This document shows, piece after piece, positions 18,456-61,468 of a stretch of 64,000 nt of DNA. The notes under the pieces were generated by a model. The model searched no databases and was not told the DNA's origin. It worked only from the letters and a program-made list of their open reading frames with translations. The stretch comes from Streptomyces sp. QL37 (GTDB lineage: Bacteria > Actinomycetota > Actinomycetes > Streptomycetales > Streptomycetaceae). The stretch spans positions 8,645,064-8,709,063 of the forward strand of contig NZ_PTJS01000001.1 in the NCBI RefSeq assembly GCF_002941025.1. The letters are read 5' to 3'. Position 1 is the first letter of the stretch. The number at the start of each line of letters is the position of its first letter. A program made the position numbers and the translations under genes.

Positions 18456-18458
18456 GGT

Positions 18459-18767
18459 CTACTCTCCTTCGTCCAGGACGGCGTCGCCGCCCTTGATGTG
18501 GCGCGCCGGGTTGAGGCCTTGTTCCATGAGGTCGACGGCCCACAGCATCGACTGGATGCCCTCCAGCTTCGCCAGGCCGGGCGTGGGTCCGAGGCGGAAG
18601 GCGCCGGGCTGCGGCTTGCCGGACGCGGCGTAGGGGAGGAAGTTGAGCGGGCTCTCACCGGGGCTGGGGTAGACGACGCAGTCGGAGAGCACGGCGAGCG
18701 GGTAGAACCCGGTCATCTTGGCCATGTTGTTGAGCTTGCGGTGCATGTTGACCCGGGCCTTGCTGAT
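18459..18767 (-). pseudogene. tap: Truncated tap (telomere-associated protein), C-terminal ~100 codons
   Basis: Only the last part survives. ISKARVNMHRK ... GFYPLAVLSDCVVYPSPG ... GLNPARHIKGGD aligns with the end of the complete Tap at 43009-45027. Homology stops sharply at 18767/18768, where an in-frame TAA follows three codons upstream. The foreign sequence beyond begins TGTCAGTTACC. The original gene was cut by an insertion or recombination. Confidence 0.85.
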
Positions 18768-18998
18768 TGTCAGTTACCTGCGTAGTTGCAACATCAGCTA
18801 GCTGCTGACCTGGTGTGCTGCAGATGTATTGGTGGAAATTGAGAGGGCTCCTGAACTGCAGTTATGAGGTTGGCTCAACTTTGATCACGCTTCTGAGCTG
18901 GCGTGCGGCAGTTCAAAAAAGAAGTGTTGCAACTCCGTCGGTAAGTTCGTCGCAGAGGTGACGTGTGTACCCATACTTGTTTTCGTCAGATTGACGAA
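18768..18998. other. AT-richer segment with clustered perfect palindromes
   Basis: This begins exactly at the tap breakpoint. It holds GTTGCAAC (18785-18792 and again 18926-18933), CAGCTAGCTG (18795-18804), AACTGCAGTT (18854-18863) and TTCGTCA-GAT-TGACGAA (18982-18998). The last is suited to be an operator for the SIR2-like gene start at 19083. The opening TGTCA is like the ends of Tn5053-type elements, but no partner end was found. Confidence 0.5.
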
Positions 18999-41731: not shown

Positions 41732-42486
41732 TTCTGGCCCTCGACCGTGAAGGGCCTCAGAGCCTTCGCCCGGCCGCCGGTGCGGACCACCGATGCCGGC
41801 CCCAAAGCGACACTCCAGTCCAAGGCAAGCCGTCGGCACCACACCAGGTGATACAGCCGCGGCAGCGCGAGCAGCCGTGGAACTCCTGACGCGCTCACGC
41901 CTTCCATCAACTCCCTGGGCACCGCGAACGCAGCCAGCAGGGCCTGCTCCACGTCACGATCGGCGTTGCGGGGATGACGGTAGCGCGACACCCACTCCAT
42001 ATTGGCCAGAGCCGTCGGCTGCGGCCTCTGCGGGGAGCCGAACTGCCACCCCGCCTCCTCACACGCCTGCTTGAGTACCTCCCGCTGACGTTCCCAGCGC
42101 GCACCGGGCCCAGCCGTTGGTGGACAGGCCACCACGACCGTGGCACCCCCGGCCGTCCTGGTGAAGAAGTCCGGCACGAAGCGGCGCACCCTGCCACGCT
42201 CAGACCATTCCAGGCGCGCCGTCCACGCCGCGAGATCCACCACGTTCGGATGAAAGTCCAGCTGCATCGCCATCGACAGGCGCTGCAACGACCGGCACCC
42301 CACAAACCTGCCCGTCGTCGCCGACCACCAATGCGTGACGATGCTCCGCTCGGACGGATGACGCAGCGGAGTCCAGACCGGAGCCTTCGCCCCGTCCCAC
42401 AATCGCACCCCTGCCACCTGCTCCACCGATGCAGCGACCTCCCGGCCCGAGCCGTCCTTATGAACGATCTGCAGGTTCTTGACCAC
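41728..42486 (-). CDS. tnsA: TnsA-like endonuclease subunit with altered catalytic residues
   Basis: 252 residues. The core SLQRLSMAMQLDFHPNVVDL followed by RRFVPDFFTR matches TnsA, with the catalytic Asp106 kept in PDFF. The Glu expected in the first helix is not visible (Gln/Arg there), and the usual Q/E-x-K strand reads VVVACPP, so two of three catalytic residues appear lost. In Tn7, TnsA makes the 5' cuts; losing it leads to copy-in (cointegrate) transposition. GTG start. It is first gene of the tns operon. Confidence 0.7.
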   Translation of the reverse strand: MVKNLQIVHKDGSGREVAASVEQVAGVRLWDGAKAPVWTPLRHPSERSIVTHWWSATTGRFVGCRSLQRLSMAMQLDFHPNVVDLAAWTARLEWSERGRVRRFVPDFFTRTAGGATVVVACPPTAGPGARWERQREVLKQACEEAGWQFGSPQRPQPTALANMEWVSRYRHPRNADRDVEQALLAAFAVPRELMEGVSASGVPRLLALPRLYHLVWCRRLALDWSVALGPASVVRTGGRAKALRPFTVEGQK

Positions 42487-43008
42487 TCACCACACCCCAG
42501 CATCTGCGAATCGGCGCCGCGTGTCACCAGCCGCACGTAGCCCGCCGAGCTCCGGACCCGGCCATAACAACGACCTGTGGCGAGCACGTGAGCACCCTCC
42601 CGCACACGCATAACCAGGTGGATGATTTTGCGTCATCTTCGCCTGGCAAGCACCCACTAAGCAGCTCGCAGCTCGGCACAAAAGCAGACGAGATAAAAAG
42701 GATTGATCCTGGTGCAGCCCCAGAACGAAGCAGAACATCTCCCCACGCCGGCCGCAGTGCTCATCCCAGAACCTGCGATATTCCCGGCAAGGGCCCAACG
42801 GCATGGCCGCTTCGCTCATCATTCGGCCGTGCCACGGCGACGCCACCTACACAGCGGGTGCGACCACTGACAGCACGTGGGACACGGCTGGCTATACCCC
42901 ACCCGGATAGCGGCCCGTTTCGTGCGCTGCGGCCGCGCCAGCCACGGATGCGCCACAGGTTGGCTTGCAGACGACCTTAGCCCGAGGCGACGTGGCAGGT
43001 TCGCCAAG
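42487..43008. other. Divergent region between tnsA and tap
   Basis: About 520 bp that must hold the tns and tap promoters and perhaps an element end. Features are GATGA-TTTTGCG-TCATC, AGGAT-TG-ATCCT, the doubled GCAGCTC and an AT-rich AGATAAAAAGG (about 42690). I found no clear terminal inverted repeat and no TnsB-type repeat array. Confidence 0.4.
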
Positions 43009-45027
43009 GTGGAAGACGATCACACCGAAGACCTCTTCGCAGGCGTCGATGCCCTCCTGGCCCAGCTCGCCCAGCCCCTCCCACCCGCACACGAACGGGC
43101 ACAGTTGAGGAGTGGCGCCGGCCTGACCAGGGAACAGGTGGCCGCCGCCCTACGGACCAGCGCCGACCTGGTCGAAGCGTGGGAGACCGGGCTTGTCGAG
43201 CCGTCCGGCACCCAGCGCGCCGCCTACGCCCGCCTTCTCCAGGGCCTGCTCGCCCAACGCCAAGCCCTCCGTCAGCCGGCTCCCAACCGCGAAGCACCAA
43301 CCGAGCAACCGACACCGGCCCGCACCCCCTCGCCCGCGCGCCAGAGCTTCAACATTCCCGCTCCCCGGACGACGGCGGCGGCACACAGCATCCCCGCCAG
43401 CGAGGACTTCCCTGCTGGTCCGCTGGCCGTTCTCTCCTTCGACGACGATTTCACCGCGCACTTCGCAGACGGCACCACCCGCCCGTGCCCCGCCGCGACT
43501 ATCGTCGACATCCTGCACTGGGCCCTCGACGCGGGCCTCGGGCAGCCCCCACTGGCAAAAAAGCACGGTCGAGCCGCAGACCCACTGATCGTTCTCACCC
43601 CCTCCGCAAACGACTACCTCGGCCTGCCCCCGCAGCTCGAAGACAGAGCTCGCCTGCGGCTCCCCGAGGACCACCCCTGGTGCGCCGCAATCACCGCGGA
43701 CGGCTGGAAGTTCACACACAGCGGCTTCGGCCCCTGGGCCCGCGTCTACTTACCTCTCCTTAACGGCAAGCGCCGAAGCATCCAGCTCGCCGTCACCGCA
43801 TGGCAGGCGCTCTCCACCGGCGGATGGAACCTGCCCCCCGGACTCCCAGCCACACAGCTCGCCCAATGGCTCGGCACCTACGCACAGCGCGTGCTCACCC
43901 CACGCGGCTCCACCGCTGTATGCGGCCAGGAACTCATGACCTCCCTGCGCCCGCCGACGAAGCCCATCCACGACGGCTCCAAATGGAAGTCCGGTGACAA
44001 TCCGGGTGCCTTATGGAGGGCGATTCCACCAGCACCGCCCGAAGCACACGACGCGCACCCGCTGGCCCGGGGACGCCAGCCCGCCGAGACGATGGACGAG
44101 GAGGCATGGGACTGGCACCGCCCCCTCAGCACACAGGAAAAAGCTGAACCGCACGTAGTCGGCCTCGACATCAATCTCGCCTTCGTATCGGCAGCGGCCA
44201 GCCTCGTCGTCGGGCTCAACGCCCCGCCACGACACGTTTCCCGGCCCCAGTTCGACCCGAAGATTCCGGGTGCCTGGTACTGCGACCTCTCCCACATCAC
44301 CCAAGACCCCCGGCTGCCCTCACCCTTCACCCCCACCGGGCAGCCACCGGCCGGCCCGGCCTGGTACACCACTCACACCCTCGCCTACGCCGCAGAACTC
44401 AAATACGAGATCGCCCCCATCGAGGCATATCTGCGCGACGACGCAGGCCGCTACCTCGACCATTGGCACAAACACTTGCGCGCCGCGTACCTGGCCACCA
44501 TGAACGACCTCGGCATCACGCCCGACATGTCCCAGAGTGACTACCTGACCGCAATGAGCACCCTGTCCCAACAGGACCCCCAGCTGCTCTCCCTGCTCGC
44601 CGCGATCAAAGCGACCGGCAAAGGAGGCATCGGCAAACTCCGGGCAGGCCCCCGCGACCCGCACCGGGCCCCTTTCGAAGCCTGGCCCGCACTCAAAACC
44701 CCCACGTGGCGGCCAGACATCCGCGCCGCAGTCATCTCCAGGGCCCGCGTCAACCTGCACCGCAAAATGCTCAAGACCCACGAACACACCGGCCGCTACC
44801 CCCTGGCCGTCCTCTCAGACTGCGTCCTCTACCCCGCCACCAGGCCCACAGCGCTGGCCACCGTGCCAACCGGACCCGACGGCATGGGCATTCAGGGGCC
44901 CTTCCGGCTCGGCGTTTCCCCCGGCATGGCCAAGGAGGAAGGCGTCCAGACCACCACCTGGTACGAGCACCTGCAAACCGAAGGCTTCAACCCAGCCCGC
45001 TACATCAAGGATGCCGGACCGGCCTAA
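43009..45027 (+). CDS. tap: Telomere-associated protein Tap
   Basis: 672 residues. An HTH covers about 39-64 (LTREQVAAALRTSADLVEAW), then a Pro/Ala linker. The C-terminal half has PolB-palm-like elements: GLDINLAF (Asp387), KATGKGGIGKL (about 534-544) and AVLSDCVLYP (Asp604), and ends FNPARYIKDAG. Tap binds telomere DNA and Tpg and has been described as having priming activity. The GTG at 43009 is chosen because it aligns with the usual Tap start; longer frames lack support. Its end is 4 bp from the end of the convergent tniQ-like gene. Confidence 0.88.
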   Translation: MEDDHTEDLFAGVDALLAQLAQPLPPAHERAQLRSGAGLTREQVAAALRTSADLVEAWETGLVEPSGTQRAAYARLLQGLLAQRQALRQPAPNREAPTEQPTPARTPSPARQSFNIPAPRTTAAAHSIPASEDFPAGPLAVLSFDDDFTAHFADGTTRPCPAATIVDILHWALDAGLGQPPLAKKHGRAADPLIVLTPSANDYLGLPPQLEDRARLRLPEDHPWCAAITADGWKFTHSGFGPWARVYLPLLNGKRRSIQLAVTAWQALSTGGWNLPPGLPATQLAQWLGTYAQRVLTPRGSTAVCGQELMTSLRPPTKPIHDGSKWKSGDNPGALWRAIPPAPPEAHDAHPLARGRQPAETMDEEAWDWHRPLSTQEKAEPHVVGLDINLAFVSAAASLVVGLNAPPRHVSRPQFDPKIPGAWYCDLSHITQDPRLPSPFTPTGQPPAGPAWYTTHTLAYAAELKYEIAPIEAYLRDDAGRYLDHWHKHLRAAYLATMNDLGITPDMSQSDYLTAMSTLSQQDPQLLSLLAAIKATGKGGIGKLRAGPRDPHRAPFEAWPALKTPTWRPDIRAAVISRARVNLHRKMLKTHEHTGRYPLAVLSDCVLYPATRPTALATVPTGPDGMGIQGPFRLGVSPGMAKEEGVQTTTWYEHLQTEGFNPARYIKDAGPA

Positions 45028-45031
45028 CACC

Positions 45032-46096
45032 TCACCGCCTCACCACGACACTCGTCATCGGGGCCCCCAACCGCCACGGAAGACACGACACAGCGTCCAA
45101 CGGCCCGAACGCCGGCACCTTCCGATGAGGCGCCATCAAAGCCAACGGGCGCCTCCGGTACCCCTCCTCGGGAGCCGGCAACGCCAGACGCTCCTTCACC
45201 GGCACCGCATTGCGATGCGCCATCAGCCAAGCCTCCAAAGCCCGATGCCCGCCCGCCGCCATCTCGCTGGCCATCCCGAGCCGCTCACCCACCCACGCAA
45301 CCCACCTACCCGTCGTCCACCCCGCCGGACCCCCCGCAAAGCTCCGCCCCACAGCCCGCTGCCGCTCACGCACCGCCATAGCTTCCGCCAGCACGATCAC
45401 CTCCGGATACACGATCAAAGGCACCGCCCACAGACCCTCACGGCCTACCCCCAACACCGCCGCACGACGGCGCCACACGCCCTTAGAACCCATCTGACGG
45501 CACTGCCACCAATACACCGCCACCTGCGACGCATCCGCCAAAAGCGCCCGCGCATACTCCCCTGAAGCCCGTTCCAGCCGCATCCGCCGCACATGCGCAT
45601 CGGCAATCTCAGGAAGATCACCTACTCCCACCTGAAACCGGCCCTGACCCAGACCAGTCCACCGCCCATGACGGACACACACAGTCCACGTATCACGCCT
45701 CACCCGCCACACAGGACCCTCAGACTTGCCGGCCGCACACAGCACACACGCGTGACCCGGCCGCTGTGCCTGCGGCCAACGCTCCACCCGCACCTGATGA
45801 CGCGCCCGCACCGTGATCCGCGACCCAGCAAGACTCGGCAAGGCCTGCTCCACCCGGACGACAGAGCGCCCACACAACTGAGCGAGCCGCTCACGAGCTA
45901 CAGGCCCCAACCACACCTCATCCACCTCAGGATCTGGCTCCGACAGGCCACCCTGACCGCCGCCCAGCCGCACAACGAGCTCGCCGAACGACCAACCATT
46001 CAGCCCTGCCAGCCGCAGCAGAAACGAAGCGCTCGTCTCATCCCTGATCCATACCGGCTGCCTCGGCAGCCGCGAAAGCACCCCGCCCCTCAACAT
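45032..46096 (-). CDS. TniQ-family protein nested between tap and tpg
   Basis: 354 residues. It begins RLPRQPVWIRDETSASFLLR, the TniQ opening, and has Cys117, Cys120, Cys140 and His143 (CVLC...CVRHGRW). The C-terminal VSCLPWRLG matches the tniQ at 34512. The ATG at 46096 has GGAGGGG 9 bases before it; an in-frame GTG 18 bases further in is also possible. It lies tail-to-tail with tap and head-to-head with tpg, with 59 bp shared upstream. No tnsABC genes belong to this copy, so it may work with those at 38-42 kb or have a telomere role of its own. Confidence 0.82.
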   Translation of the reverse strand: MLRGGVLSRLPRQPVWIRDETSASFLLRLAGLNGWSFGELVVRLGGGQGGLSEPDPEVDEVWLGPVARERLAQLCGRSVVRVEQALPSLAGSRITVRARHQVRVERWPQAQRPGHACVLCAAGKSEGPVWRVRRDTWTVCVRHGRWTGLGQGRFQVGVGDLPEIADAHVRRMRLERASGEYARALLADASQVAVYWWQCRQMGSKGVWRRRAAVLGVGREGLWAVPLIVYPEVIVLAEAMAVRERQRAVGRSFAGGPAGWTTGRWVAWVGERLGMASEMAAGGHRALEAWLMAHRNAVPVKERLALPAPEEGYRRRPLALMAPHRKVPAFGPLDAVSCLPWRLGAPMTSVVVRR

Positions 46097-46155
46097 CCTC
46101 TGAATCCCCTCCACAACACCCGAACCCCGCCCTCTATCCACCCTTAGGAGCGCCC

Positions 46156-46728
46156 ATGACCCTGCGCCGATACGCCAGCACCGTCGCCGAAGCCCTGGAC
46201 CGGGCCGACGCCCGCCACTGGACCAGGCAGCCACCCCGCTCCCACCGATCCCGCATCCGATACCTACTCCAGCACACACAGAACGACCCGCTGGCCCTGG
46301 CCGCCCTGCTCGCCGTACCCAAGAACGACATCCTGGGCGCCTTGGCCGGAGACACGCCAACCGACACCCAAGCCGCCAAGACAGAACGCGAACTCCTGCG
46401 TCAATGGCAGCCCCAAGTGCGCCGCCGAGCCCACCGCACCATCCTCGACAACGGGGGGCTCCTGACCGTGTCCTTCCGCGCATGGTTCGGCTTCACCGCC
46501 GCTCTCGGGACCACCGACGACCCCCGCCTACGATTCCTCACCACAAGCCTGTGCGCGCCCTACCCCGAACGGCTGTTTACCGCGCACCACAGATCATCCC
46601 CAGAACAGGAACTCCACCAAATTCTCGGCGAGGCTCTCGCCGCAAGCTACTTCCACCAGCGCACCAGCTCTCACACACAGGAAGCCGTCACGCTCCAGAA
46701 GATCGACTACCTCGAATTCTCATATTGA
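46156..46728 (+). CDS. tpg: Telomere terminal protein Tpg, second copy
   Basis: 190 residues. It has SRIRYLLQHTQ near the start, ELLRQWQPQVRRRAHR, then GGLLTVSFRAWFGFTAALG and the C-terminal LQKIDYLEFSY, matching the Tpg layout of the copy at 17898 while clearly divergent in sequence. TAGGAG precedes the ATG. It is normally immediately downstream of tap; here a tniQ-like gene lies between. It would be attached to the 5' telomere end. Confidence 0.85.
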   Translation: MTLRRYASTVAEALDRADARHWTRQPPRSHRSRIRYLLQHTQNDPLALAALLAVPKNDILGALAGDTPTDTQAAKTERELLRQWQPQVRRRAHRTILDNGGLLTVSFRAWFGFTAALGTTDDPRLRFLTTSLCAPYPERLFTAHHRSSPEQELHQILGEALAASYFHQRTSSHTQEAVTLQKIDYLEFSY

Positions 46729-47443: not shown

Positions 47444-50245
47444 ATGGCGGCAACGGGGTTCGTGTGGTCTGACGACAGAGAGAAGGCCATCTACCAGCAG
47501 GTGGTGAAGGAGTGCCTGGACGAAGGGCACTTGCAGGAAATGCTGGCGCGGCGACCCGAGGTGTCTGTCGAGCATGTGGCTGAAGCGGTAGGCACCGCGC
47601 CGTATGTCGACAGGGTGTTGGCGGATCGGGCTCACCGCAAAGGACACCTGCTCTACCGGCGAGTGCTGCGGATCTCTGCGCCGGTGAGCTGGGCCATGCC
47701 CGTCAGCGCGACCCTTGGCGAGCAGTGGAAGCAGGAAAACGCAGCGCGGTGGGCCGGCGGAATTTTCTCCTTCACCATGGGAGCGCTCCTTGCTCTGGGC
47801 CCTGCGTGGCCGTGGGGGTTGGGACTGCTGATTCTGCAGTCCCTCTTCTATGCGGCGCTGACCTACCTCGACGGGCGGCTGAGCGGCCCCTTCAGCCTCT
47901 CCCCGCAGACGGGCGGGCCTCTCGTAACGTGGCGTCACGCCTGCCTGCTCGCGCTGCTCAACCCAGTGACGGCCACGCTGTGGTGGGCACAGCGGCTGAC
48001 CCAATGGTTATGGATGTCAGAACTTCGCCGTAGCGGGCTGGCCGTCGAAGTGGGGCTGGCCGTCGAGGAACTCTTCGGTGACGACCTGCACACCCTCCTG
48101 ATGCCCAGCAGTTATGAGGGGCTGAGAGCCCCGCAGGACGACCAGTATCACGTCGACAACACGGCGCTGGCAGAACTGAAACGCAAGATGGCCCACCTGG
48201 ACGGCGGGGCCGTTGCCGTGAGCGGGCCGCGCGGAGTAGGCAAAACGACACTGATGCAGCGGTGCGTGCAACCACGGGACTTCTCGGTCTTCGCCCATGC
48301 CCCCGCCACCTACACCCCGCACGACTTCCTCATCTCGCTGTTTGTCAGCGTATGCAGGACGTACATCGACCGAGCCGGCTACACGGCGCCCGACTTCGTG
48401 CGGCTGTCATACCTGCGCAGGCTGCTGGACCGGATGCTGCCGCCGTTGAGACGACTGCTGCATGCCCTGGCACGAACCGTGCCGGCGCTCGCCCTGATCG
48501 GGCTCGGCCTGTACGCCTGGGGCCGCTCCCGCGTTGAGGATCTGGACCCACGAGTGCGCCATATCCTTGCCTCCGCCGCCGAGGCCGTCGGATCCTTCGT
48601 TCAAGACGTCGCAGCGGGACGGGCACCGGAAGCCGCCCTGGTACTCGCCTTCGCAGGGGTGTTTGTCTGGCAGAGGCGCCTCTCCCAGACCCTGATCCTC
48701 AGACTGAAGATCGCAGCCGTTTCGATCGTCATGTTCTGCGTCCTTGCTGCCTTCCTCTGGCCCGTCCTCTCCCTCCTCATCGATCCCGACCTCCGCGGAA
48801 GGGAGAACCCTGGCACCTTTCGGCCCTGGCAAGCCGGCCTCGTTCTTGCCTGGATCGGCTGCTTGTATCTGTACCTCTCCCCGCCGCCGCCAGGGGAACC
48901 GGCTGACGCCGGACGATTTGCGGACAAGCAACGGTGGTTCGGCCCGCCCGTGAGGCTGCTTCCCTTCGCCTTTGTCGGACTCACCTTCCTCGACCCAGCA
49001 ACCCGCCCCTTCCTCGCCGACGACGAAAACCCGCTCCGTCTCGGCACGTTCCTCCTCGCCTTGCTCATCTGGCAACTCATCAATCAACCCCGGCGCCTAC
49101 TTCCAAGGACCGCACCACCGATGGTGATCGCATGCCGCAATCACCTCTACCGCCTGCAGACCATCCAGAGCGCCACTGCCGGCCTGACCACTGGCGCTGC
49201 CCCCTTCCTCACCCTGGGCACTACGCATTCGGGCGCTCTGACCTCTCTAGCTCCCGCCTACCCCTCCCTCGTCAACGAGTTCCGAGAGCTGCTCACCCGC
49301 ATTGCGCGGGACGAGCACGCCCAGGGCCACCGTGTTGTGATCGTCATCGACGAAGTGGACCGCCTCGGCACGGATGTTCAGGCTCTGAGCTTCCTTGCCG
49401 AGATCAAAGCGATCCTGGGAGTGCCCCATGTGCACTACCTGATTTCCGTCGCGGAGGACGTAGGGGCTGCGTTTGTACGACGCGGGCTGCCGCACCGGGA
49501 CGTGACAGACAGCTCGTTGGACGACGTGCTGCACGTTCTGCCGCGCACTCTGGACGAGTCTGCAGTCATTATGAAGAGGCGGGCGCCAGATGTCAGCGAC
49601 CCGTACATCGCATTTTCCCACGCACTCTCGGGCGGCATCCCGCGTGACCTGATCCGTTACGGCCGACGCCTGATGGAGATCCGTTCAGACACTGACAGCG
49701 TCCAACTGTCCGAGCTGGTGCAGGCGCTGCTGATCGAGGAGCTGTCGGCGACACTGGCTGGCTTCCGCACCCTGCTGGCCAAACAGGAGTGGCAGCCCGC
49801 AACTACGAATATTCTAGACTCCTTCCGCATCCTGGCCGCACACCTGAAGGTCGCCTGTCCCTGTCCGGAACCGACAGACCAACTGCGAGGAGCACTCCAG
49901 TATTTCGTTGCATGTGGCGGCACCGACCTCCCAGACGCGTCCGGTCGTCTTGTTGACGAGGCCACCGCATACGCGTACTTTTCCCTCACCCTCCTCGAAG
50001 TGTTCGGCCAACCCGACTTCGCGGATCGAAGAGCGAGGGCAGCGCGACGCCCTGACGGACACCTTGGCCTGCTCGCAGAGGCCCGATTGGAACTTGCCGT
50101 ATCGCCCTACAGCACCCGCACGGTTATCGATGCGGTGCGCGGTGCGTGGCAGCTCGAGCCGGTGGCCGCCCTGGGGACACACCCTGGCGTCGTGATCCCA
50201 CCGCCGCGCGGAGCAGCGTGCTCAGCGGATCACGCCACGCACTGA
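47444..50245 (+). CDS. KAP-family membrane P-loop NTPase
   Basis: 933 residues. Walker A SGPRGVGKTT (260-269) and Walker B VVIVIDEVDRLG are separated by several membrane helices (VPALALIGLGLYAWG, AAVSIVMFCVLAAFLWPVL, AGLVLAWIGCLYLYL, GTFLLALLIWQLI). This is the KAP feature of transmembrane segments inserted into the P-loop domain. Two further hydrophobic stretches lie near 105-140, before the ATPase. The C-terminus is helical. KAP NTPases appear in defence loci as membrane-linked switches. It is a single gene with an ATG start. Confidence 0.75.
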   Translation: MAATGFVWSDDREKAIYQQVVKECLDEGHLQEMLARRPEVSVEHVAEAVGTAPYVDRVLADRAHRKGHLLYRRVLRISAPVSWAMPVSATLGEQWKQENAARWAGGIFSFTMGALLALGPAWPWGLGLLILQSLFYAALTYLDGRLSGPFSLSPQTGGPLVTWRHACLLALLNPVTATLWWAQRLTQWLWMSELRRSGLAVEVGLAVEELFGDDLHTLLMPSSYEGLRAPQDDQYHVDNTALAELKRKMAHLDGGAVAVSGPRGVGKTTLMQRCVQPRDFSVFAHAPATYTPHDFLISLFVSVCRTYIDRAGYTAPDFVRLSYLRRLLDRMLPPLRRLLHALARTVPALALIGLGLYAWGRSRVEDLDPRVRHILASAAEAVGSFVQDVAAGRAPEAALVLAFAGVFVWQRRLSQTLILRLKIAAVSIVMFCVLAAFLWPVLSLLIDPDLRGRENPGTFRPWQAGLVLAWIGCLYLYLSPPPPGEPADAGRFADKQRWFGPPVRLLPFAFVGLTFLDPATRPFLADDENPLRLGTFLLALLIWQLINQPRRLLPRTAPPMVIACRNHLYRLQTIQSATAGLTTGAAPFLTLGTTHSGALTSLAPAYPSLVNEFRELLTRIARDEHAQGHRVVIVIDEVDRLGTDVQALSFLAEIKAILGVPHVHYLISVAEDVGAAFVRRGLPHRDVTDSSLDDVLHVLPRTLDESAVIMKRRAPDVSDPYIAFSHALSGGIPRDLIRYGRRLMEIRSDTDSVQLSELVQALLIEELSATLAGFRTLLAKQEWQPATTNILDSFRILAAHLKVACPCPEPTDQLRGALQYFVACGGTDLPDASGRLVDEATAYAYFSLTLLEVFGQPDFADRRARAARRPDGHLGLLAEARLELAVSPYSTRTVIDAVRGAWQLEPVAALGTHPGVVIPPPRGAACSADHATH

Positions 50246-50655: not shown

Positions 50656-51372
50656 TCACTGCGCCGTGCTCCGGATGCCGAGGACGTCGTAGAGGTGCCG
50701 GCCGTGGGCCCATTGCTTGAGTTCCGTGCGTCCGACGAGGACGAGCTTGTGGTGCTGGGCAAAGTCGGTCGCCGGCCGGGTGAAGCCGTTGAGCGCGATC
50801 ATGATCGGCAGGTCGGCCCCGTGGTGTGGGCGAGCTGTCCCGTTGAATTTCTGCACGTGTCCCGATCCGACCGGGCTCTGGTATTGCTTGCACTGGAGGA
50901 TCAGGAGACGGTTGTCGCTGTCGCGGGCGGTGACGTCCACGCCGAGGTCACCGGCGCCGCCGACCCGGCGTGGGCTGAGGAACCCGTCCCGTGCCAGAAG
51001 ATCAGAACATGCCTGCTCGAAGCCCGTCGCGCTCATCGAGGACAGCTCCTTCATCCTGAAGGTGAGCATGTCCGGTCCGGCAAAGGCATCAGGGGCTATG
51101 AGCGTGTCCTGCGGGCCGGCGTAGACAGCGGACGAGGTGTCGGACACGAACGCCACCAGCAGGCCCAGCATGAGGAACACGAGCAGCCCGCCGGACACGA
51201 TGAGCGCGGTCCACCACGGGTGGCCGGTGATCACGCCCCACAGGTCCACGGTGATCCACCGGCTGACGTCCTCGGTGATCCACTCCCAGAGCATCTTGCC
51301 GATGGCCAGCGTAAGAACGGAGTAGAGCAGGAATTTCAGCAGCGGGTCGAGCGACCCGTCTTCGTCGAACAC
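50656..51372 (-). CDS. Membrane-anchored Mrr-like restriction endonuclease
   Basis: 238 residues from GTG 51372 (GGGAGG upstream). Two membrane helices lie near 10-30 and 54-77. The nuclease domain has GFEQACSDLLARDGF, then GGAGDLGVDVTARD (Asp142/146) and LILQCKQY (Gln160-x-Lys162), the Mrr_cat pattern. The end FAQHHKLVLVGR is the usual final strand. It would cut DNA, perhaps modified or incoming, near the membrane. It follows a second such gene with the same direction and a 43-bp gap. Confidence 0.75.
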   Translation of the reverse strand: MFDEDGSLDPLLKFLLYSVLTLAIGKMLWEWITEDVSRWITVDLWGVITGHPWWTALIVSGGLLVFLMLGLLVAFVSDTSSAVYAGPQDTLIAPDAFAGPDMLTFRMKELSSMSATGFEQACSDLLARDGFLSPRRVGGAGDLGVDVTARDSDNRLLILQCKQYQSPVGSGHVQKFNGTARPHHGADLPIMIALNGFTRPATDFAQHHKLVLVGRTELKQWAHGRHLYDVLGIRSTAQ

Positions 51373-51415
51373 CACACCTCCCGACCTGATGAACAAACGA
51401 TCCGGATCCTGCGGA

Positions 51416-52090
51416 TCAGGCAGCCCGCCTGAACCGGCCCGCGCGAGGCCCTGCGGACAGCCCGAGAAGCTCATGCAACGTTGCGCCGTCCCGGGCCCAG
51501 CGCTGCAGCCTGTCGCGGTCAACCCAGTGCACGCCGTGCCGCTCGCCCCACGCCATGGCGTCACGGGTGAAGCTCCCGTTGGTGATGACGACAGCATGCG
51601 CCGCTTTGTGTACCGGACCGGCGGTGCCCTTGACCGCGTACATGACCGAGGAGCCCACCTTCCCGCCGACGCGGGTGTGTTTGGCCTGCACCACGATCCG
51701 GCCGAGCCGCGGATGGTCCCCTATGACATCGGCGGCCTGGTCCCCTGCACCGCCCACCCTGCGGGCCGGACAACCATCGCGGACCAGCAGGTCCCGCAAG
51801 GCATGCTCGAAGCGCCGGTCGTCCATCGCGTCGAACTCGGCCAGGGCGATCCGAAGCGCGGCCACCCGCTCTCCCTCACGACGCCGCCTTGCGCTCGTCT
51901 GCCGCAGGCGCCATACGCCCACCGCTCCCACGAGCAGGACGAGCGCCAGCAGAACGGGCCAGGCCTGCGCTAACGCGCCTGTCGCCGCCACCAGCATCCG
52001 CACAGCAAGCACGAGCACGGCCACCACGACGACGGCGGCCGAGACCACCTCTGCCGTGCCGCGCGGACGCCGCAAACGCAGCAGCGCCAT
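51416..52090 (-). CDS. Second membrane-anchored Mrr-like restriction endonuclease
   Basis: 224 residues. Two N-terminal hydrophobic helices (VVSAAVVVVAVLVLAVRML and WPVLLALVLLVGAVGVW) are followed by FEHALRDLLVRDGC, GAGDQAADVIGDH (Asp121) and IVVQAKHTR (Gln135-x-Lys137). It is a paralogue of the next gene, with little sequence identity outside the motifs. Its ATG overlaps the stop of the small membrane-protein gene (TGATG), so the operon is small membrane protein - nuclease - nuclease. Confidence 0.75.
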   Translation of the reverse strand: MALLRLRRPRGTAEVVSAAVVVVAVLVLAVRMLVAATGALAQAWPVLLALVLLVGAVGVWRLRQTSARRRREGERVAALRIALAEFDAMDDRRFEHALRDLLVRDGCPARRVGGAGDQAADVIGDHPRLGRIVVQAKHTRVGGKVGSSVMYAVKGTAGPVHKAAHAVVITNGSFTRDAMAWGERHGVHWVDRDRLQRWARDGATLHELLGLSAGPRAGRFRRAA

Positions 52091-52969: not shown

Positions 52970-53572
52970 ATGCTGCTGACTACCGGACAAGCCGCAGAGG
53001 AACTGGGCTGTGCGATCACCACGTACCGGCGCCTCATCAGGGCAGGCGTGCTTCCCGGCATCTCCCGGCGCGGTGTTCGCGTGATGACGCCGCTTTGGGT
53101 CGTCCAGGCACTGCAGAAACGCGCCCCTGCCCCCGTGGACCGCCTGGACGCCGACCTGCTCGGGGTCCTGCGTGTCGACGCAGCACGCCAAGTCCAGGAC
53201 ACCGACCGGAACTGGGCAGGCTACGCGGCAGGTCTTGGCCCCGATGACCTGCTCAAGGGCTTGAGGGGCTGGTGGCGCTGTGACGCCGCGAGCGTGGCAG
53301 CCGGGGGAGTGCTGCCGGTGACAGTGTCGGGCTACGTGGTGGCCGTCCTGACCGGCCTGGACAGGTGGGAGAAGGGCGAGGGTGGGCGGCACGCATTTCC
53401 CGATGCAGTCCTCACTGGATATGTCAGCGACCTGGCCACCCCGATAAAACATCTGACCGCACCGCGCCAGGCCGACCGGGACGTCGCGGATCTCCTCCTG
53501 GGGACCCGCTTGCCCTCGCAGTCGAGCGGCGCGATCGCGTACGTCTCCACCCGTAGCAGTTCCGCCAACTGA
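52970..53572 (+). CDS. HTH (excisionase/MerR-like) DNA-binding protein
   Basis: 200 residues from ATG 52970, with GAGGAGG upstream. LLTTGQAAEELGCAITTYRR followed by LIRAGVLPGISRRGVRVM is a winged MerR/excisionase-type helix-turn-helix. The rest is helical and not assigned. It is the first gene of an operon with the Tap-like and Tpg-like genes, 22 bp before the next. It may give the DNA-recognition part that is fused in the classic Tap. Confidence 0.65.
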   Translation: MLLTTGQAAEELGCAITTYRRLIRAGVLPGISRRGVRVMTPLWVVQALQKRAPAPVDRLDADLLGVLRVDAARQVQDTDRNWAGYAAGLGPDDLLKGLRGWWRCDAASVAAGGVLPVTVSGYVVAVLTGLDRWEKGEGGRHAFPDAVLTGYVSDLATPIKHLTAPRQADRDVADLLLGTRLPSQSSGAIAYVSTRSSSAN

Positions 53573-53594
53573 CCTGCAGGCCCAAGGGATCGTG

Positions 53595-55754
53595 ATGGAC
53601 GCAAAGACCTACACCGCACAGCTGGCCGAGCTGCGTGCCCTGCGCGACGACATCAAGAAGACCCAGGCCACCCTCGCCAAACTCGAGACGAACCGTGCCC
53701 GGCAGATCACCGCGCTGGCCGGATACGAAAAGGCGAATGCAGAGCGCATCGCGCCCGCGGCCGGACTCAGCCTCGCTGACGTCGTGGCGATCGCCCCGAT
53801 CCTTGCCCCCGACCAGCTCACCAACCCCGCATCAACAGCCCAGACCGCCGCAGCCGTCTCACCCCCAGTGCCCGCCAGGGAGGCAGCACTGCCCAGCGGC
53901 ACCGAACACGCACAGGCCCAGGCGGCCACGGTCGCCCCGGCCATGACCCGCCCCGCCCCTGAACCAGCAGCGGAACCAGAACCGCCCGCACCAGCGACTT
54001 CCGCGCCGCCAACCACGCCAGCCCCGGCCGCAGCCCCTCTGCGCACGGCCCACGGAACCCAGCGCACCCTTCCCGACATCCCGCAAGGACTCGACGGAGA
54101 CCGCTGGTTCACCCACACCGCGAACCTTGCCTCCACGCACCCGAACTTCACCCAGCAGGCCCGCAGCACCGTCTTCCTCGACACCGAGGCCGGCGTGCTG
54201 GTCCACCGCGACCAGACGTTCCGCGTAGACCTGCCGACCGCCAGCGCCGCAGAAATCCTGAACACCGTCTTCCACGCCCTGCCCGACGGCGTCGAACGGA
54301 TCTACATCACCGCGGGCGCCCCCTGGCACCGCCAGGCCGACCAGCATTCCTTCCTCAAGGACGCCGTCGGAGCCTGGCTGAACGCCCCCACACCCGGCTG
54401 GCGCACGGACACCGGGCGGGGCAAGGACCGCATGGCCGGCCACTTCGTCCACCCCCGCAACCCCGTCGGCCGCTACCAGCGCGAACAGGGCGAACAGCAC
54501 GTCGAGATCCGATCGGCGGGGGAGTGGTTCGACACCGAGGGCACCGAGCCCGCCGTCATCCGCGACGCGTTCGTCCTGCTGTGGAAAGCCCTGCGCCGCC
54601 ACTGGCCCGACGCCGTCCTGATGGGCTCACCGTCCCAGACAGGCCGTGACCTATGGACCCGCACCATCCCCACCAAGGGCCAGCACGCCGACGGCTACCC
54701 GGTCCTGTCCGAAGAACTGCGCGGCCTCTTCCACGCCACGGCCGGACAGGGACGCACCGAACTCATCACCCCGCCCCACGTCCCCGAACAGCTGCCCGCC
54801 CTGGTCGAGTACGACCGGACCTTCGCCTACGCCAAGCACACCTGGAAAGCCGGCATCGGCACCCCCCGCCGTGTCACCGCCACACGGTTCGCCGCCTGGT
54901 CGGAAAAGGAACAGACCAAGGCGCTGTTCGCCTGCGGGCACTGGCACGTCCGCGTCACCGTCCCCCAGACCTGGGACCACGTCGGCATCCTCCCCGCGCC
55001 CGCCCCCGGCGACCGGGCCTGGCACTACCCCGCCACCCCCGGCACCACGTTCACCACCTGGGCGGGCGGACCCGAGATCCACACCGCCCTGTCCAACCCG
55101 CGCAGCCCGTGGAAGATCGAAATCCTCGACGGCATCCTCTTCGACGACGGCAAGCCCCTGGACGACTGGTCCAAGAAGCTCAAGGAAGCCTGGTCCTCCC
55201 TCACCGCCCAGGCCGACCTCAACGGCGACCCCGCCCAGCGCACCGCCGCACACCTCGCAGCCCGGGCGGTGCGCGCCATCCTCCTCTACGGCATCGGCGC
55301 CTTCGCCCAACGCCCCCGCACCGTCACCGGCACCACCCCCCGCACCGCAGAACGTGACGTCCCCACCGATGCCGAGATCATCGGCTTCGACGACCAGACC
55401 ATCACCTGGCAACGCCCCACCGGCTTCACCCGCGACCCCAACGCCCACCCCGAATGGGCCGCCCACATCTGGTCCTCCGCCCGAGCCGCCCTGCTCTCCC
55501 AGCGCCACCGCGACGACAACACCTACGCAGGAGCCCTCCACGCCCCGCCCAGCAGCGTCGTCGCCTTCCGCACCGACGCCGTCTACCTCACCCAGCCCCA
55601 GAACTGGCCCTACCACGGCCAGCCCGGCGACTACCTGAACAAGGGCCACCTCACCGGCCCCCTCACCGCACCCACCACCGAAGACGAACTCCTGACCCTG
55701 CGCGACAAGGGCCGCACCACCCAGCCCACCGCATCCAACAACGAGGGGTCCTGA
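53595..55754 (+). CDS. Divergent Tap-like protein with polymerase-like palm motifs
   Basis: 719 residues. An N-terminal coiled coil (AELRALRDDIKKTQATLAKL) leads to a Pro/Ala linker (110-150), then a C-terminal half that parallels Tap: VEYDRTFAYA (Asp407) for Tap's GLDINLAF, PLDDWSKKLKEAW for Tap's RYLDHWHKHLRAAY, LLYGIGAFA for GKGGIGKL, and VAFRTDAVYLT (Asp661) for AVLSDCVLYP. This is the A/B/C motif order of PolB-type palms. It has no HTH of its own. It is likely the Tap/Tac counterpart of a distinct telomere system (inferred). Confidence 0.55.
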   Translation: MDAKTYTAQLAELRALRDDIKKTQATLAKLETNRARQITALAGYEKANAERIAPAAGLSLADVVAIAPILAPDQLTNPASTAQTAAAVSPPVPAREAALPSGTEHAQAQAATVAPAMTRPAPEPAAEPEPPAPATSAPPTTPAPAAAPLRTAHGTQRTLPDIPQGLDGDRWFTHTANLASTHPNFTQQARSTVFLDTEAGVLVHRDQTFRVDLPTASAAEILNTVFHALPDGVERIYITAGAPWHRQADQHSFLKDAVGAWLNAPTPGWRTDTGRGKDRMAGHFVHPRNPVGRYQREQGEQHVEIRSAGEWFDTEGTEPAVIRDAFVLLWKALRRHWPDAVLMGSPSQTGRDLWTRTIPTKGQHADGYPVLSEELRGLFHATAGQGRTELITPPHVPEQLPALVEYDRTFAYAKHTWKAGIGTPRRVTATRFAAWSEKEQTKALFACGHWHVRVTVPQTWDHVGILPAPAPGDRAWHYPATPGTTFTTWAGGPEIHTALSNPRSPWKIEILDGILFDDGKPLDDWSKKLKEAWSSLTAQADLNGDPAQRTAAHLAARAVRAILLYGIGAFAQRPRTVTGTTPRTAERDVPTDAEIIGFDDQTITWQRPTGFTRDPNAHPEWAAHIWSSARAALLSQRHRDDNTYAGALHAPPSSVVAFRTDAVYLTQPQNWPYHGQPGDYLNKGHLTGPLTAPTTEDELLTLRDKGRTTQPTASNNEGS

Positions 55755-56467
55755 TGCCGCCCCGCCGCCGACGCGCCCCCGCACCGCAACTCAACGACGC
55801 AGCTCAGCTCGCCGACCAGCTCCAGGCAGCCGGCTACACCAAACGCGACATCGCCCGCATCATCAACCGCGACGCTTCCCTCGTCTCCCAGTTCTACTCA
55901 AAGAACAAAGGCGCAGCCTTCGTACCCGCCCTCACCCAGGTCCTCGCCGCTGTCCAGAGCGCAGGTATCACCGACACCGCCGAACTCGCGGCCATCGCCG
56001 CCGGGCACATCACCCGCCGCACCACCGCCGCCGGCACCAAAGCCCGCGTCCGCACCAAAGCACTCCTGATCACCCCCACTGGTACTGGCACCGGCCGCGC
56101 AGGAGCACAGGCCATCGCCTCCGGATCCGCCCGCCTGCGCCCCCTCATCGCCGAAGCCGCCCGTCAGGGCCTGCGCCTGGCCTTCACTGTGCGCCTGGCC
56201 AGGGCCGGCTACGTCCACGCCTCCGGAAGCCGCACCGACTCGCCCGGTATCCGCCGCGACGTCATCCAGCGCGCCGACCACACCGAAGAGCGCTCCTACG
56301 GATCGGCTGCCACTGGCGGGTTCGACGCTGCGGACTTCGCCCGCCGCGTCGACCAGTCCGGCGGAGACGTCACCGCCGCCATCCACCATTGGCTCGTCGA
56401 CACCGGCCGTATCCACCCCGGCGCCCACATCACCCACCTGGAAATCCGCACCTGGCGCCCACGCTGA
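55754..56467 (+). CDS. Divergent Tpg-like terminal protein candidate
   Basis: 237 residues. It begins with a basic PPRRRRAPAPQ and an HTH (YTKRDIARIINRDASLVSQF). The second half has LRLAFTVRLARAGYVHASGS, which parallels Tpg's ITVETRARFGYTSSAG, and ends ITHLEIRTWRPR where Tpg ends NDIDYLDLDY. The ATG overlaps the stop of the Tap-like gene (TGATG), the same gene order as tap-tpg. It is slightly longer than Tpg and is similar in size to the SCP1-type terminal protein Tpc. Assignment is by layout and short matches. Confidence 0.5.
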   Translation: MPPRRRRAPAPQLNDAAQLADQLQAAGYTKRDIARIINRDASLVSQFYSKNKGAAFVPALTQVLAAVQSAGITDTAELAAIAAGHITRRTTAAGTKARVRTKALLITPTGTGTGRAGAQAIASGSARLRPLIAEAARQGLRLAFTVRLARAGYVHASGSRTDSPGIRRDVIQRADHTEERSYGSAATGGFDAADFARRVDQSGGDVTAAIHHWLVDTGRIHPGAHITHLEIRTWRPR

Positions 56468-56572: not shown

Positions 56573-57442
56573 ATGACCGAATCAATCACCGCGCATTTCG
56601 GCACTGACGGAGTCCGCCGATTCCACCCCGTATCCCTCCACGGCGCCCCAGTACCTGAGGACGTTGCCCGCGCGCTGCGAGACCAGGGCGTTCCTGTCGC
56701 GGTCGCACCCTACTTCCGCGCGGCTGCCACCAATGACGCCGCGCAACTCGCAGCGTTCGCCTCCCAGCAAAAGCACCAGTCACCGCCCGGCGCGCTCAGC
56801 CGCTGGCCGCGCCTGGGCACAGACGCAGGCGCCGAGCTGTGCGTCAGACCCGACGGTGCCATCCAAGCCGTCTTCTTGTCCGAGCTGCTTCCGGACATGT
56901 ACGTCAGCGCAAGCGTAGATCTCTTCAACCAAGCGCTGGTACTCCTCGACCGCAGCCTGCCGCGCCTTGCCGCAGTGGACGGCATCGAGGACGCACTCCC
57001 CGTCTTTCACAGCCTCATGACAGGACTCAAGGACCTCGACCCCCTGGCCTTCGCCGAACGGGAAAGCTGGTGGCCCCGAGTCCTGGACGACGTACGGCAC
57101 ACCCTGAACTTCCCCTACTCGGCCTCCTTCGAGTTCAAGCTGCCAGACGGACGCAAGGAAATCGTCACCGACAGCACAGGCCCCGGCCGGCTCCATCCCG
57201 AGGAGCGCGTCTGGCAACGCCTGTCAGCATCCGGGGTCCGTCCGCAAGACGTCACCCGCGTCTACTGCGAACTCCAGCCCTGCCTCATGCCCGGCCACTA
57301 CTGTGCCCAGTGGATGCAAGAGCTCTTTCCCGCAGCGCAGTTCACACACAGCTTCGACTACGGCGTCACCGCGGAATCACGCGAAGAGGGACTGAAGCAA
57401 GCGATCTTGTACGCTGCTCAGCAGGCTGGCCAACAGCAGTAG
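56573..57442 (+). CDS. SUKH-4-like domain fused to a deaminase-like domain
   Basis: 289 residues. The N-terminal 150 residues (FHPVSLHGAPVPEDVARALRD ... RWPRLGTD ... LFNQALVLLD) match SUKH-4-type immunity proteins. The C-terminal part has HPEERVWQRL (His208, Glu210/211) and CELQPCLMPGHYC (Cys237, Cys244), the zinc and catalytic pattern of the XOO_2897-like nucleotide/nucleic-acid deaminases. It is the first of four co-directional genes of a polymorphic-toxin-like locus. Whether the deaminase part is active or a decoy is unknown. Confidence 0.65.
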   Translation: MTESITAHFGTDGVRRFHPVSLHGAPVPEDVARALRDQGVPVAVAPYFRAAATNDAAQLAAFASQQKHQSPPGALSRWPRLGTDAGAELCVRPDGAIQAVFLSELLPDMYVSASVDLFNQALVLLDRSLPRLAAVDGIEDALPVFHSLMTGLKDLDPLAFAERESWWPRVLDDVRHTLNFPYSASFEFKLPDGRKEIVTDSTGPGRLHPEERVWQRLSASGVRPQDVTRVYCELQPCLMPGHYCAQWMQELFPAAQFTHSFDYGVTAESREEGLKQAILYAAQQAGQQQ

Positions 57443-59328: not shown

Positions 59329-60891
59329 GTGGGCATACAACTGCCCGAAGACCTGCGCGACATCATGGAGATGGTCGGCGTCGACTGGCCTGACATCGAC
59401 GAAGACCAACTCACGGACACGGCCCGGGAGTACCGCGAGTTCGCCGAAGAGCTGCGGGACACCATCCGAGACGCCAACAAAGCCTGCAGCAACGTCCTTG
59501 CCGGACGCAGCAAGGGCCTGGCCGTGGACGCGTTCAGGCAGCGCTGGGGCAAGGTCTCCGGCCAGGACATGAAGCACCTCGCCGACGCCATGGACCTGCT
59601 GGCCGGCGCCATGGACACCGGGGCCGGATACGTCACCACCTGCAAGGTCGCCGTCATCGCCGACCTCAGCGCCGCAGCTGCCGCTGTTGCCGGGGGCCTC
59701 ATCGGTGCCATCTTCACCGGAGGCCTCTCCGCTCTGCTGGGAGCAGCAGCAGCCCTGGCCCTGAAGATGGCGGTCAGGGAAGCCATCGACCTCCTCGTCT
59801 CCCAGCTCATCGACATCGCAGTGGAAAAGATCGAAGGGGAGATCCTGGCGAAACTGGAAGGTCTGTTCGACGACACGACCTCCTCCCAAGGCCACGACAA
59901 GAACGGCACCCTCCTCCCGGAAGGGCTCGACTCGGTCGGACAGGACCTCTGGATCGAGTTCGCCGAGTTCGCCGACGCCATCGACCAACTCGGTAAGGAG
60001 CAGGGAAAACTCCACGACAAAAAGAAGAACTTCAAGGATAAACGGTCCAAGCGCAGCCTCGTCACGAAGAAGGACGACCGCTTCGCCAAATTCGGGGCCG
60101 CCATCGACAAGGCCGAGGACAAGGTCGAGGCCACCGCGCACTCCATGCACAAGGAGATCGAGAAGAACGTCACCGGCCTCGACAAGACCAAGCGCAGTAA
60201 TGACGAAACCGACAAACACGTCAAAGGTGAGGTCGACGCCTGCAGTCCCGGCAAGAAGGACGACGACGGCAAAGATGTGCCAATGTACCTCCTCTCCAAG
60301 GACGGCACAGTACAACAACTGCTCCCCGACGGCACATTGAAGGATGTCGACAAGAAAGACGCATCAGGAATCCACGACCTCCTCGAGTCCGACGGAAAGG
60401 CATGGCGACCGGACAGCAGGGCCGAGAAGAAAGAAGTAGGCGTACAGGACGACGAAACCAAAGTCGTCAAATCAAGCCGCGTTGACCCCTACAAGGATCC
60501 GCTGGGACAGGCGACACAACTCGCCCGCTACGCCAACAACGACTACGAGACGAAGCATAATTACGCCGCAGGAAGATACATCGACCCCTCGGACAAGAAC
60601 AAGGAACTCATCCTCATCGGCCGAAGCGACCGCGGCATGCACTCCGAACGCGTAATCGGATACTCTCTCATCCATAAAGGCAAACAGGACGGGCTCGACG
60701 AAGTGTTCACCGAACGGGCGCCATGTCAAAGACGTAACAGTCGCTGCGACGCATGGCTCGCCAAACACTTCGGGGCAGACACCAAAGTCACTGACGCAGT
60801 CCCCTACGACCAGCTCAACGGAAACAGAGAAGAAGGGAACGCGCTACACAAAGCCTACGTAGACAAGCTGAAGACGGCGCACGGTCGCTAA
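59329..60891 (+). CDS. Polymorphic toxin with C-terminal deaminase domain
   Basis: 520 residues. The N-terminal ~100 residues are a helical WXG100-like/secretion domain, then a hydrophobic stretch (SAAAAAVAGGLIGAIF) and Lys/Asp-rich coiled coil. The C-terminal toxin has HSERVIGYSLI (His438, Glu440) and PCQRRNSRC (Cys466, Cys473), the zinc site of nucleotide/nucleic-acid deaminases. This fits a type VII-secreted or contact-dependent toxin that deaminates nucleic acid or nucleotides. GTG start. The neighbouring SUKH gene encodes the likely immunity protein. Confidence 0.75.
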   Translation: MGIQLPEDLRDIMEMVGVDWPDIDEDQLTDTAREYREFAEELRDTIRDANKACSNVLAGRSKGLAVDAFRQRWGKVSGQDMKHLADAMDLLAGAMDTGAGYVTTCKVAVIADLSAAAAAVAGGLIGAIFTGGLSALLGAAAALALKMAVREAIDLLVSQLIDIAVEKIEGEILAKLEGLFDDTTSSQGHDKNGTLLPEGLDSVGQDLWIEFAEFADAIDQLGKEQGKLHDKKKNFKDKRSKRSLVTKKDDRFAKFGAAIDKAEDKVEATAHSMHKEIEKNVTGLDKTKRSNDETDKHVKGEVDACSPGKKDDDGKDVPMYLLSKDGTVQQLLPDGTLKDVDKKDASGIHDLLESDGKAWRPDSRAEKKEVGVQDDETKVVKSSRVDPYKDPLGQATQLARYANNDYETKHNYAAGRYIDPSDKNKELILIGRSDRGMHSERVIGYSLIHKGKQDGLDEVFTERAPCQRRNSRCDAWLAKHFGADTKVTDAVPYDQLNGNREEGNALHKAYVDKLKTAHGR

Positions 60892-60916
60892 CGCCAAGCA
60901 CAAGTAAGGTCAACCC

Positions 60917-61468
60917 ATGAGCTACTCCGTCAGTTCAGACGAGATCATCCGCCTGTTCGGACTCAAGGGAATCGTCATGTTTCCCCGAGAGGAACATCGG
61001 AACCCTGCCGAGCTGTCACGCTCGATGCGCATCCTGCACGAAGTGGGCCTCCCGCACGACGACCTCTTCCTTTCACGCATGGACGTCAAAAATCCCAGCC
61101 AAGAATCCGTGTATCTTGGTGAGTTCCTCGAAACCACAGGGCGGCCCTACCCCCCCGAGGCGCAAAACTGGCTCGTCCTGGGCTACTTCAACGACTCAAT
61201 CCTGGCCTTGAACCCCGGCACCGAACACATCTATGCCTTCCCGGAAGGCACCTCACGGCACCTGCTGCTCCACCGTGACGCCGAGTCGCTGATCTACAGC
61301 CTCTGCGTATTGCAGGCCTATCATGTCGAACGCGACGAAGCCGACGATGAAGAAGCCCTCGCGCAGCAGACACATGCCAAGATCAAACAGTTCGACAACA
61401 CACCCTTCGAGGACCCCATCTCAGAGTGGAACATCATCTTTGAAGAGATTTTCGAGGGCTCCTGGTGA
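60917..61468 (+). CDS. SUKH-4 family immunity protein
   Basis: 183 residues, 25 bp after the deaminase toxin. GLKGIVMFPREEH, WLVLGYFNDSILALNPGTEH and FPEGTSRHLLLHRDAESLI fit the SUKH-4 fold. SUKH proteins bind and block toxins including deaminases, so it is the probable antidote of the toxin at 59329. Acidic C-terminus. ATG with AAGG upstream. Confidence 0.78.
   Translation: MSYSVSSDEIIRLFGLKGIVMFPREEHRNPAELSRSMRILHEVGLPHDDLFLSRMDVKNPSQESVYLGEFLETTGRPYPPEAQNWLVLGYFNDSILALNPGTEHIYAFPEGTSRHLLLHRDAESLIYSLCVLQAYHVERDEADDEEALAQQTHAKIKQFDNTPFEDPISEWNIIFEEIFEGSW

Follow-up and report, generated by a model that had tools for sequence, protein, structure and literature searches.

The DNA analysed here (the window, 64,000 nucleotides) comes from Streptomyces sp. 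QL37 and corresponds to positions 8645064-8709063 of the strain's main contig, C1 (8,772,908 bases). At positions 52970-56467 of the window, ~71 kb from the right end of this contig, lie three plus-strand genes forming an operon that very probably encodes a telomere-patching system akin to the known pairs Tap/Tpg and Tac/Tpc:

52970-53572, + strand: gene 1, helix-turn-helix (HTH) protein of 200 aa, with an N-terminal HTH (HTH_17/excisionase-like)
53592-55754, + strand: gene 2, Tap-like/Tac-like protein of 720 aa, with a predicted phi29-type (protein-primed) family-B DNA polymerase fold, an N-terminal helix and a low-complexity linker
55754-56467, + strand: gene 3, putative terminal protein (protein primer) of 237 aa, with an N-terminal HTH

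Gene 2 starts with GTG (an alternative in-frame ATG lies at 53595), and the ATG of gene 3 shares one base, at position 55754, with the TGA of gene 2. A large-protein gene followed, with a one-base overlap, by an HTH gene is the order of the tap-tpg operon, as the initial annotation of the window had pointed out. No Pfam or NCBIfam family was matched over its cut-off by any of the three proteins. For gene 2, NCBIfam returned no family at E <= 1, and the 600-bit cut-off of the Tap family (NF047542) was therefore not reached, nor did Pfam detect an HTH family in this protein; for gene 3, NCBIfam yielded no match, Tpg (NF047541) included.

Gene 1 has matches to HTH_17 (E = 6.9e-5) and to the excise family TIGR01764 (E = 6e-4), each under its curated cut-off. 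It is 48.7% identical to the upstream gene of a homologous pair in Kitasatospora sp. NBC_01300 and unrelated to the upstream genes in pFRL3, pRVR1 and pSVL1. The suggestion that the HTH fused in Tap might here be a separate protein fits this locus, where a separate HTH gene exists, but does not hold generally: with a related gene in only one of the four Streptomycetaceae loci compared, we rejected gene 1 as a required third part. It is possibly a regulator or an accessory DNA-binding subunit.

Similarity of gene 2 to Tap and predicted fold

The parallel initially drawn between the middle gene and Tap relied on four motifs, all of which are present in the gene 2 protein: VEYDRTFAYA (containing D408), LDDWSKKLKEAW, LLYGIGAFA (G569) and FRTDAVYLT (D662). 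The three residues named are invariant among 123 aligned members of the gene 2 family. Profile comparison with hhalign of 16 gene 2 family members against 14 Taps gave a probability of 93.8 (E = 1.7e-7, score 68.2, 241 columns), compared with scores of 27.5 for the best of 40 column-shuffled controls and 13.9 for a reversed alignment. The likeness of gene 2 to Tap is thus beyond chance and, at the level of sequence profiles, indicates distant homology. Three segments of the protein are proposed to correspond to family-B polymerase motifs:

54807-54833, + strand: proposed motif A, EYDRTFAYA; D408, a candidate metal ligand, is invariant in the 123 members and aligned with Tap D431
55272-55298, + strand: proposed motif B, RAILLYGIG; R561 and G569 are both invariant in the 123 members, and MAFFT pairs the segment with KATGKGGIG of Tap and KLMLNSLYG of phi29
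55566-55586, + strand: proposed motif C, FRTDAVY; D662, a candidate metal ligand with D648 as its equivalent in the Tap of the window, is invariant in the 123 members and in 10/10 rows of an alignment of the family, Tap and phi29

The AR motif preceding motif C also aligns with phi29 in this 10-row MAFFT alignment. Gene 2 therefore presents counterparts of motifs A, B and C with two putative catalytic aspartates, D408 and D662.

A comparison of predicted structures with Tap and PolB had been put forward as a test, and unrelated folds were not found: phi29 DNA polymerase is the closest solved structure to the predicted models of both gene 2 (~12% identity) and Tap (7-9% identity). The two proteins share one predicted fold, and for gene 2 this is the fold of a polymerase. 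Five of 16 gene 2 relatives match Pfam PF03175 (best E 4.4e-4; where shown, 17.9 bits against a cut-off of 25.8), and the window's own gene 2 protein gives no match. Membership of a circular-plasmid Rep family, the other outcome named as adverse, was not observed among the Pfam and NCBIfam matches of the three proteins or the Pfam and PHROGs matches of the 16 gene 2 relatives; the relatives include pLMV7, published as linear and as having terminal proteins at its 5' ends (PMC3869321).

The corresponding parallel between the last gene and Tpg stood only in part. The HTH is present, but the resemblance is weak (hhalign probabilities of 17 and 38, mostly over the HTH), and homology to Tpg is not claimed. 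In search of a priming residue we considered the few conserved Ser/Thr of gene 3 (T29, T73, T233), none of which is a convincing candidate.

Distribution of the gene 2-gene 3 pair

A protein search with gene 2 retrieved 535 relatives at E <= 0.001 (7994 candidates scored), the best being from Streptomyces; among the 120 matches listed, the names are mostly 'hypothetical protein' or 'Mucin-19', in Streptomyces. With tblastn, relatives were detected in 58 plasmid records: 26 from Streptomyces, 5 from Kitasatospora and 27 from other genera (Curtobacterium, Micrococcus, Cutibacterium, Microbacterium, Clavibacter, Paenarthrobacter, Kineococcus, Glutamicibacter and Rothia). Query coverage is at least 80% in 22 of the 58, and some matches are short pieces. 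Of these 58 loci, 17 were inspected, and each has a gene of 199-305 aa 3' of the gene 2 homolog, either immediately or with one or two short genes in between. A linear topology is annotated for ten of the 17 (pFRL3, pLMV7, pKRAD01, pC1b, a Rothia record, pGnpA106, pRVR1, Kitasatospora NBC_01300, pSVL1 and pKVP2). The last of these (CP090842, from Kitasatospora viridifaciens DSM 40239) carries a DNA-binding gene upstream of its gene 2 and gene 3 homologs.

Among 295 genomes, 21 Streptomyces genomes have a strong gene 2 match, with a gene 3 homolog adjoining it in 19. In G069 and G284 the pair lies equally far from the two contig ends, with a difference of at most one base, and hence in terminal inverted repeats. 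A phylum-wide profile search matched 2 of 396 genomes, the source genome and another Streptomyces.

Telomere sequence associated with the pair

The last 400 bases at the right end of C1 contain eight perfect hairpins with GNCA loops (at most one in shuffled sequences), and no perfect hairpin with any other 3- or 4-base loop at a stem of at least 5. When the last 610 bases were compared by blastn with 72,556 plasmid records, four matched, the best place in each lying at most 421 bases from the record end. Homologs of genes 2 and 3 are present on CP120993 and CP134205. The other two records come from Streptomyces sp. NBC_00525 and S. phaeochromogenes, and under both names the protein search also retrieved gene 2 homologs from very long contigs (for S. 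phaeochromogenes by name, the strain being unmatched).

With the two best candidates per genome scored, the terminal 390 bases were matched in 16 of the 295 genomes. Nine of these matches are internal, and seven (in G000, G052, G086, G132, G191, G253 and G293) fall within ~420 bases of a contig end. All seven genomes belong to the set of 21 that match gene 2 strongly, and in six the telomere match lies on gene 2's own contig. The chance of finding 7/7 within 21/295 is 3e-9 (5e-8 without the query genome), a probability that is only a guide because the genomes are not independent. Hairpin counts, made on contig ends that were not chosen blind, agree: ten of 20 ends from genomes with gene 2 bear 4-9 GNCA hairpins, and 0-1 is the count at each of 20 ends taken from 18 genomes that lack a strong match to gene 2.

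Two apparently complete ends of relatives (G132 C20 and G100 C2) start 5'-GGGGGCGG, that is, with GGGGG, and pSCO2 starts 5'-GGGGGGCAG (GGGGGG). A 5' G-run of the Tac/Tpc kind is thus found at the ends of relatives; that of the source strain we infer from them, because the terminal bases are missing from its assembly. We conclude that genes 2 and 3 represent a real, widespread telomere-replication pair, which is unnamed as a family in Pfam and NCBIfam.

Archetypal tap and tpg genes

The window also contains archetypal telomere genes:

42877-45027, + strand: canonical tap, on the same chromosome arm (NF047542, 877.8 bits, cut-off 600)
46156-46728, + strand: tpg, 1.1 kb downstream of the canonical tap (NF047541, 148.2 bits, cut-off 90)
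17901-18449, - strand: second tpg (NF047541, 268.6 bits)
18489-18779, - strand: second tap, reduced to a remnant of its last ~97 positions, with one stop (NF047542, 147.7 bits, below cut-off)

Judging from these matches, 17901-18779 is a decayed archetypal operon. Since the genome has a single tap over the cut-off, accompanied by a tpg, and another tpg next to the tap remnant, the operon of genes 1-3 constitutes a third, divergent set, roughly as first supposed. The usual tap-tpg neighbourhood is interrupted, because a frame of 483 aa carrying a TniQ transposition-type domain (E = 1.4e-8) sits between tap and tpg at 45032-46483 on the minus strand. Upstream of tap, at 39308-41842, lies an IS481-like transposase gene (844 aa).

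With three Tap candidates per genome scored, neither a Tpg match nor a Tap over the cut-off was found in G052, G069, G079 and G285. G052 (two contigs) possesses genes 2 and 3, and either end of its main contig bears a GNCA-type telomere; its Tap match, at 1.7e-17, is far below the cut-off. Apparently, therefore, the pair is able to serve as the sole recognisable telomere system of a linear chromosome.

Relationship to described telomere systems

With Tap/Tpg (NF047542, NF047541) the system shares the distant gene 2-Tap homology, the common predicted phi29-like fold, the operon order and a subtelomeric position. It differs in that genes 2 and 3 have no NCBIfam match, the HTH gene is separate while gene 2 has no HTH family match, the telomere sequence is distinct, and the resemblance of gene 3 to Tpg is weak.

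The Tac/Tpc system of the S. coelicolor plasmid SCP1 has the same arrangement of a large-protein gene followed by a terminal-protein gene, and Tpc carries an HTH at its N terminus (PMC3572947). SCP1 telomeres begin with a run of G (PMC4513846). The S. collinus plasmid pSCO2 is presented in PMC8743542 as a linear plasmid with SCP1-type telomeres that carries tac and tpc, and its only annotated protein exceeding 400 aa is homologous to gene 2 (31.8% identical across 75% of the query). The G-run ends, taken with a gene 2 homolog as the sole large protein of pSCO2, therefore make the operon a probable relative of Tac/Tpc, its likeness to SCP1 being drawn, from sequence, through pSCO2. The loops are GNCA tetraloops here and, by our own count, mostly GNA triloops in pSCO2; nevertheless, since SCP1 telomeres are credited with 4-nucleotide loops in PMC7205883, loop size may not separate GNCA telomeres from the SCP1 type. 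We had also considered K. viridifaciens DSM 40239 for equating the family with Tac/Tpc, but dropped it as the locus tags differ: the homologs on pKVP2 are tagged BOQ63_042775/042770, and the published chromosomal tac/tpc BOQ63_42425/42430.

Other non-archetypal Streptomyces systems include GtpB/GtpA of S. griseus and, altogether, six described telomere classes (PMC7205883 and PMC8743542). As described there, loops are of GNA types, CTTG or, for SCP1, an unspecified 4 bases; GNCA was not met in those descriptions. The Sg2247 class was not adopted, its loops being described as mainly GGA, GAA and GTA. Beyond Tap/Tpg and Tac/Tpc, PMC8743542 states, no telomeric proteins have been characterised.

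Proposed mechanism and alternative explanations

We propose that the products of the operon patch telomere ends, most probably in the manner of Tac/Tpc, at hairpin telomeres with GNCA tetraloops and 5'-GGGGG ends (probability roughly 0.85). Replication from an internal origin would leave a single-stranded 3' overhang; folded as GNCA hairpins, it would be the substrate. Gene 2, acting as a divergent phi29-type family-B DNA polymerase, and gene 3 would bind this overhang, and gene 2 would attach the initial dGMP to a hydroxyl-bearing residue of gene 3 and elongate it to a short oligonucleotide. Unlike phi29 polymerase, gene 2 is expected, by analogy with what is reported for Tap (PMC4513846), to make a short primer only. 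The gap would then be filled by a host polymerase, with gene 3 remaining as a 5' cap, and the HTH protein of gene 1 might regulate the process or bind DNA as an accessory.

Several observations weigh against this reading, and the first of them concern the enzyme. Motif A of gene 2 was matched to that of phi29 by eye only, MAFFT not aligning the two, and motif C lacks the first acidic residue of the phi29 DTD, reading xxD with D662 as the second. Other pairs of alignments gave weaker gene 2-Tap matches in hhalign (probability 58 for A3-A4, 61 for A1-A5 and 17.5 for A3-A5). Neither gene 2 nor Tap profiles matched the single phi29 sequence in hhalign. The 14 Tap members had no Pfam polymerase match, and an hmmsearch of the PDB with the gene 2 family alignment A3 returned no polymerase at E <= 10 (three matches at E 0.29-0.30 were taken as chance). 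Because the profile-to-phi29 comparison found nothing, the polymerase link draws on predicted folds, motifs and the below-cut-off Pfam match. It could accordingly be argued that the pair is a telomere system in which gene 2, with a decayed polymerase fold, is only a structural binder or recruiter, and a host DinB-type polymerase primes. The incomplete motif C fits this idea, as do an exonuclease-like region without a conserved acidic pair in the 10-row alignment and the earlier proposal that Tap tethers Tpg for a polymerase (PMC4513846). Yet the candidate metal ligands D408 and D662 are invariant in the 123 members, and Tap and Tac are reported to suffice for nucleotide addition in vitro (PMC4513846); we regard this alternative as unlikely.

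Further such points concern the chromosome end. The remaining ten of the 20 contig ends from genomes with gene 2 have 0-1 GNCA hairpin, and the contig-terminal match of G191 covers only 26 bases, on a contig other than gene 2's. The left end of C1 (positions 1-700) displays, by eye, no telomere-like hairpins, unlike the right end. As scoring was limited to a few top candidates per genome (two for the telomere, three for Tap), counts and Tap absences are not exhaustive. GNCA hairpins were also not found in the deposited left end of pFRL3 or at the contig ends retrieved for G069, G285 and others. We tentatively attribute the low-hairpin ends in gene 2 genomes to incomplete assembly, many contigs probably stopping before the telomere, and the left end of C1 may be truncated or differ from the right. 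Finally, a Tap encoded on the same arm could serve this chromosome end. Were the operon a plasmid relic with products inactive on this chromosome, Tap and a Tpg would maintain both ends; the window does hold a Tap over the cut-off and two Tpg genes, and gene 2 relatives are often plasmid-borne. However, the right chromosome end bears the GNCA telomere that accompanies this operon, the reading frames are open, the pair occurs in terminal repeats of other chromosomes, and four genomes have neither a Tpg match nor, among three candidates scored in each, a Tap over the cut-off; a relic is quite improbable.

The last point is that seven of the 17 inspected plasmid records are marked circular, one of them being pSCO2, the only one compared with print. 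That gene 2 might be a conventional polymerase for replicating or repairing linear plasmids and no telomere enzyme, linked to telomeres through co-inheritance on plasmids, would suit the ParA, helicase-associated or DnaB genes near some relatives, but is very improbable in view of the Tap homology, the constant downstream HTH gene and pSCO2, printed as a tac/tpc carrier, with this homolog as its only large protein.

It is likely, in our estimation, that Tap, Tac and the gene 2 family descend from one phi29-type protein-primed DNA polymerase tamed by actinobacteria as a chromosome-end primer enzyme, that the GNCA/GGGGG branch can be the sole system of a whole Streptomyces chromosome, and that relatives of this branch are responsible for maintaining linear plasmids in genera ranging from Streptomyces to Micrococcus, Kineococcus, Curtobacterium and Cutibacterium. 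The predicted polymerase fold of gene 2 and Tap is the most far-reaching result and offers a new structural explanation. Among openly licensed PMC papers, none was found that names Tap or Tac a family-B polymerase, and in a survey of PolB diversity (PMC7544198) none of the terms Streptomyces, Actinobacteria, linear plasmid, terminal protein and telomere occurs. No Tap relative was confirmed in viral contigs. Should gene 2 and Tap indeed be phi29-type family-B polymerases, the present analysis names the catalytic residues for mutagenesis, and telomere replication in Streptomyces would fall into one evolutionary line with phage phi29. In addition, a GNCA-loop telomere type is tied to its likely proteins, and 'hypothetical protein' and 'Mucin-19' genes of actinobacterial plasmids gain a testable function.

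Neighbouring genes

Just upstream of the operon, at 50656-52090 on the minus strand, are two adjoining frames with Mrr-type restriction endonuclease domains, and an AAA/KAP-like P-loop NTPase of 933 aa is encoded at 47444-50245. Downstream, 56573-57442 and 59329-61468 encode a protein in which a SUKH-4 immunity domain is joined to an XOO_2897-like deaminase domain, an AAA-like protein, and a WXG100-type protein that has this deaminase domain too and is followed by a SUKH-4 gene.

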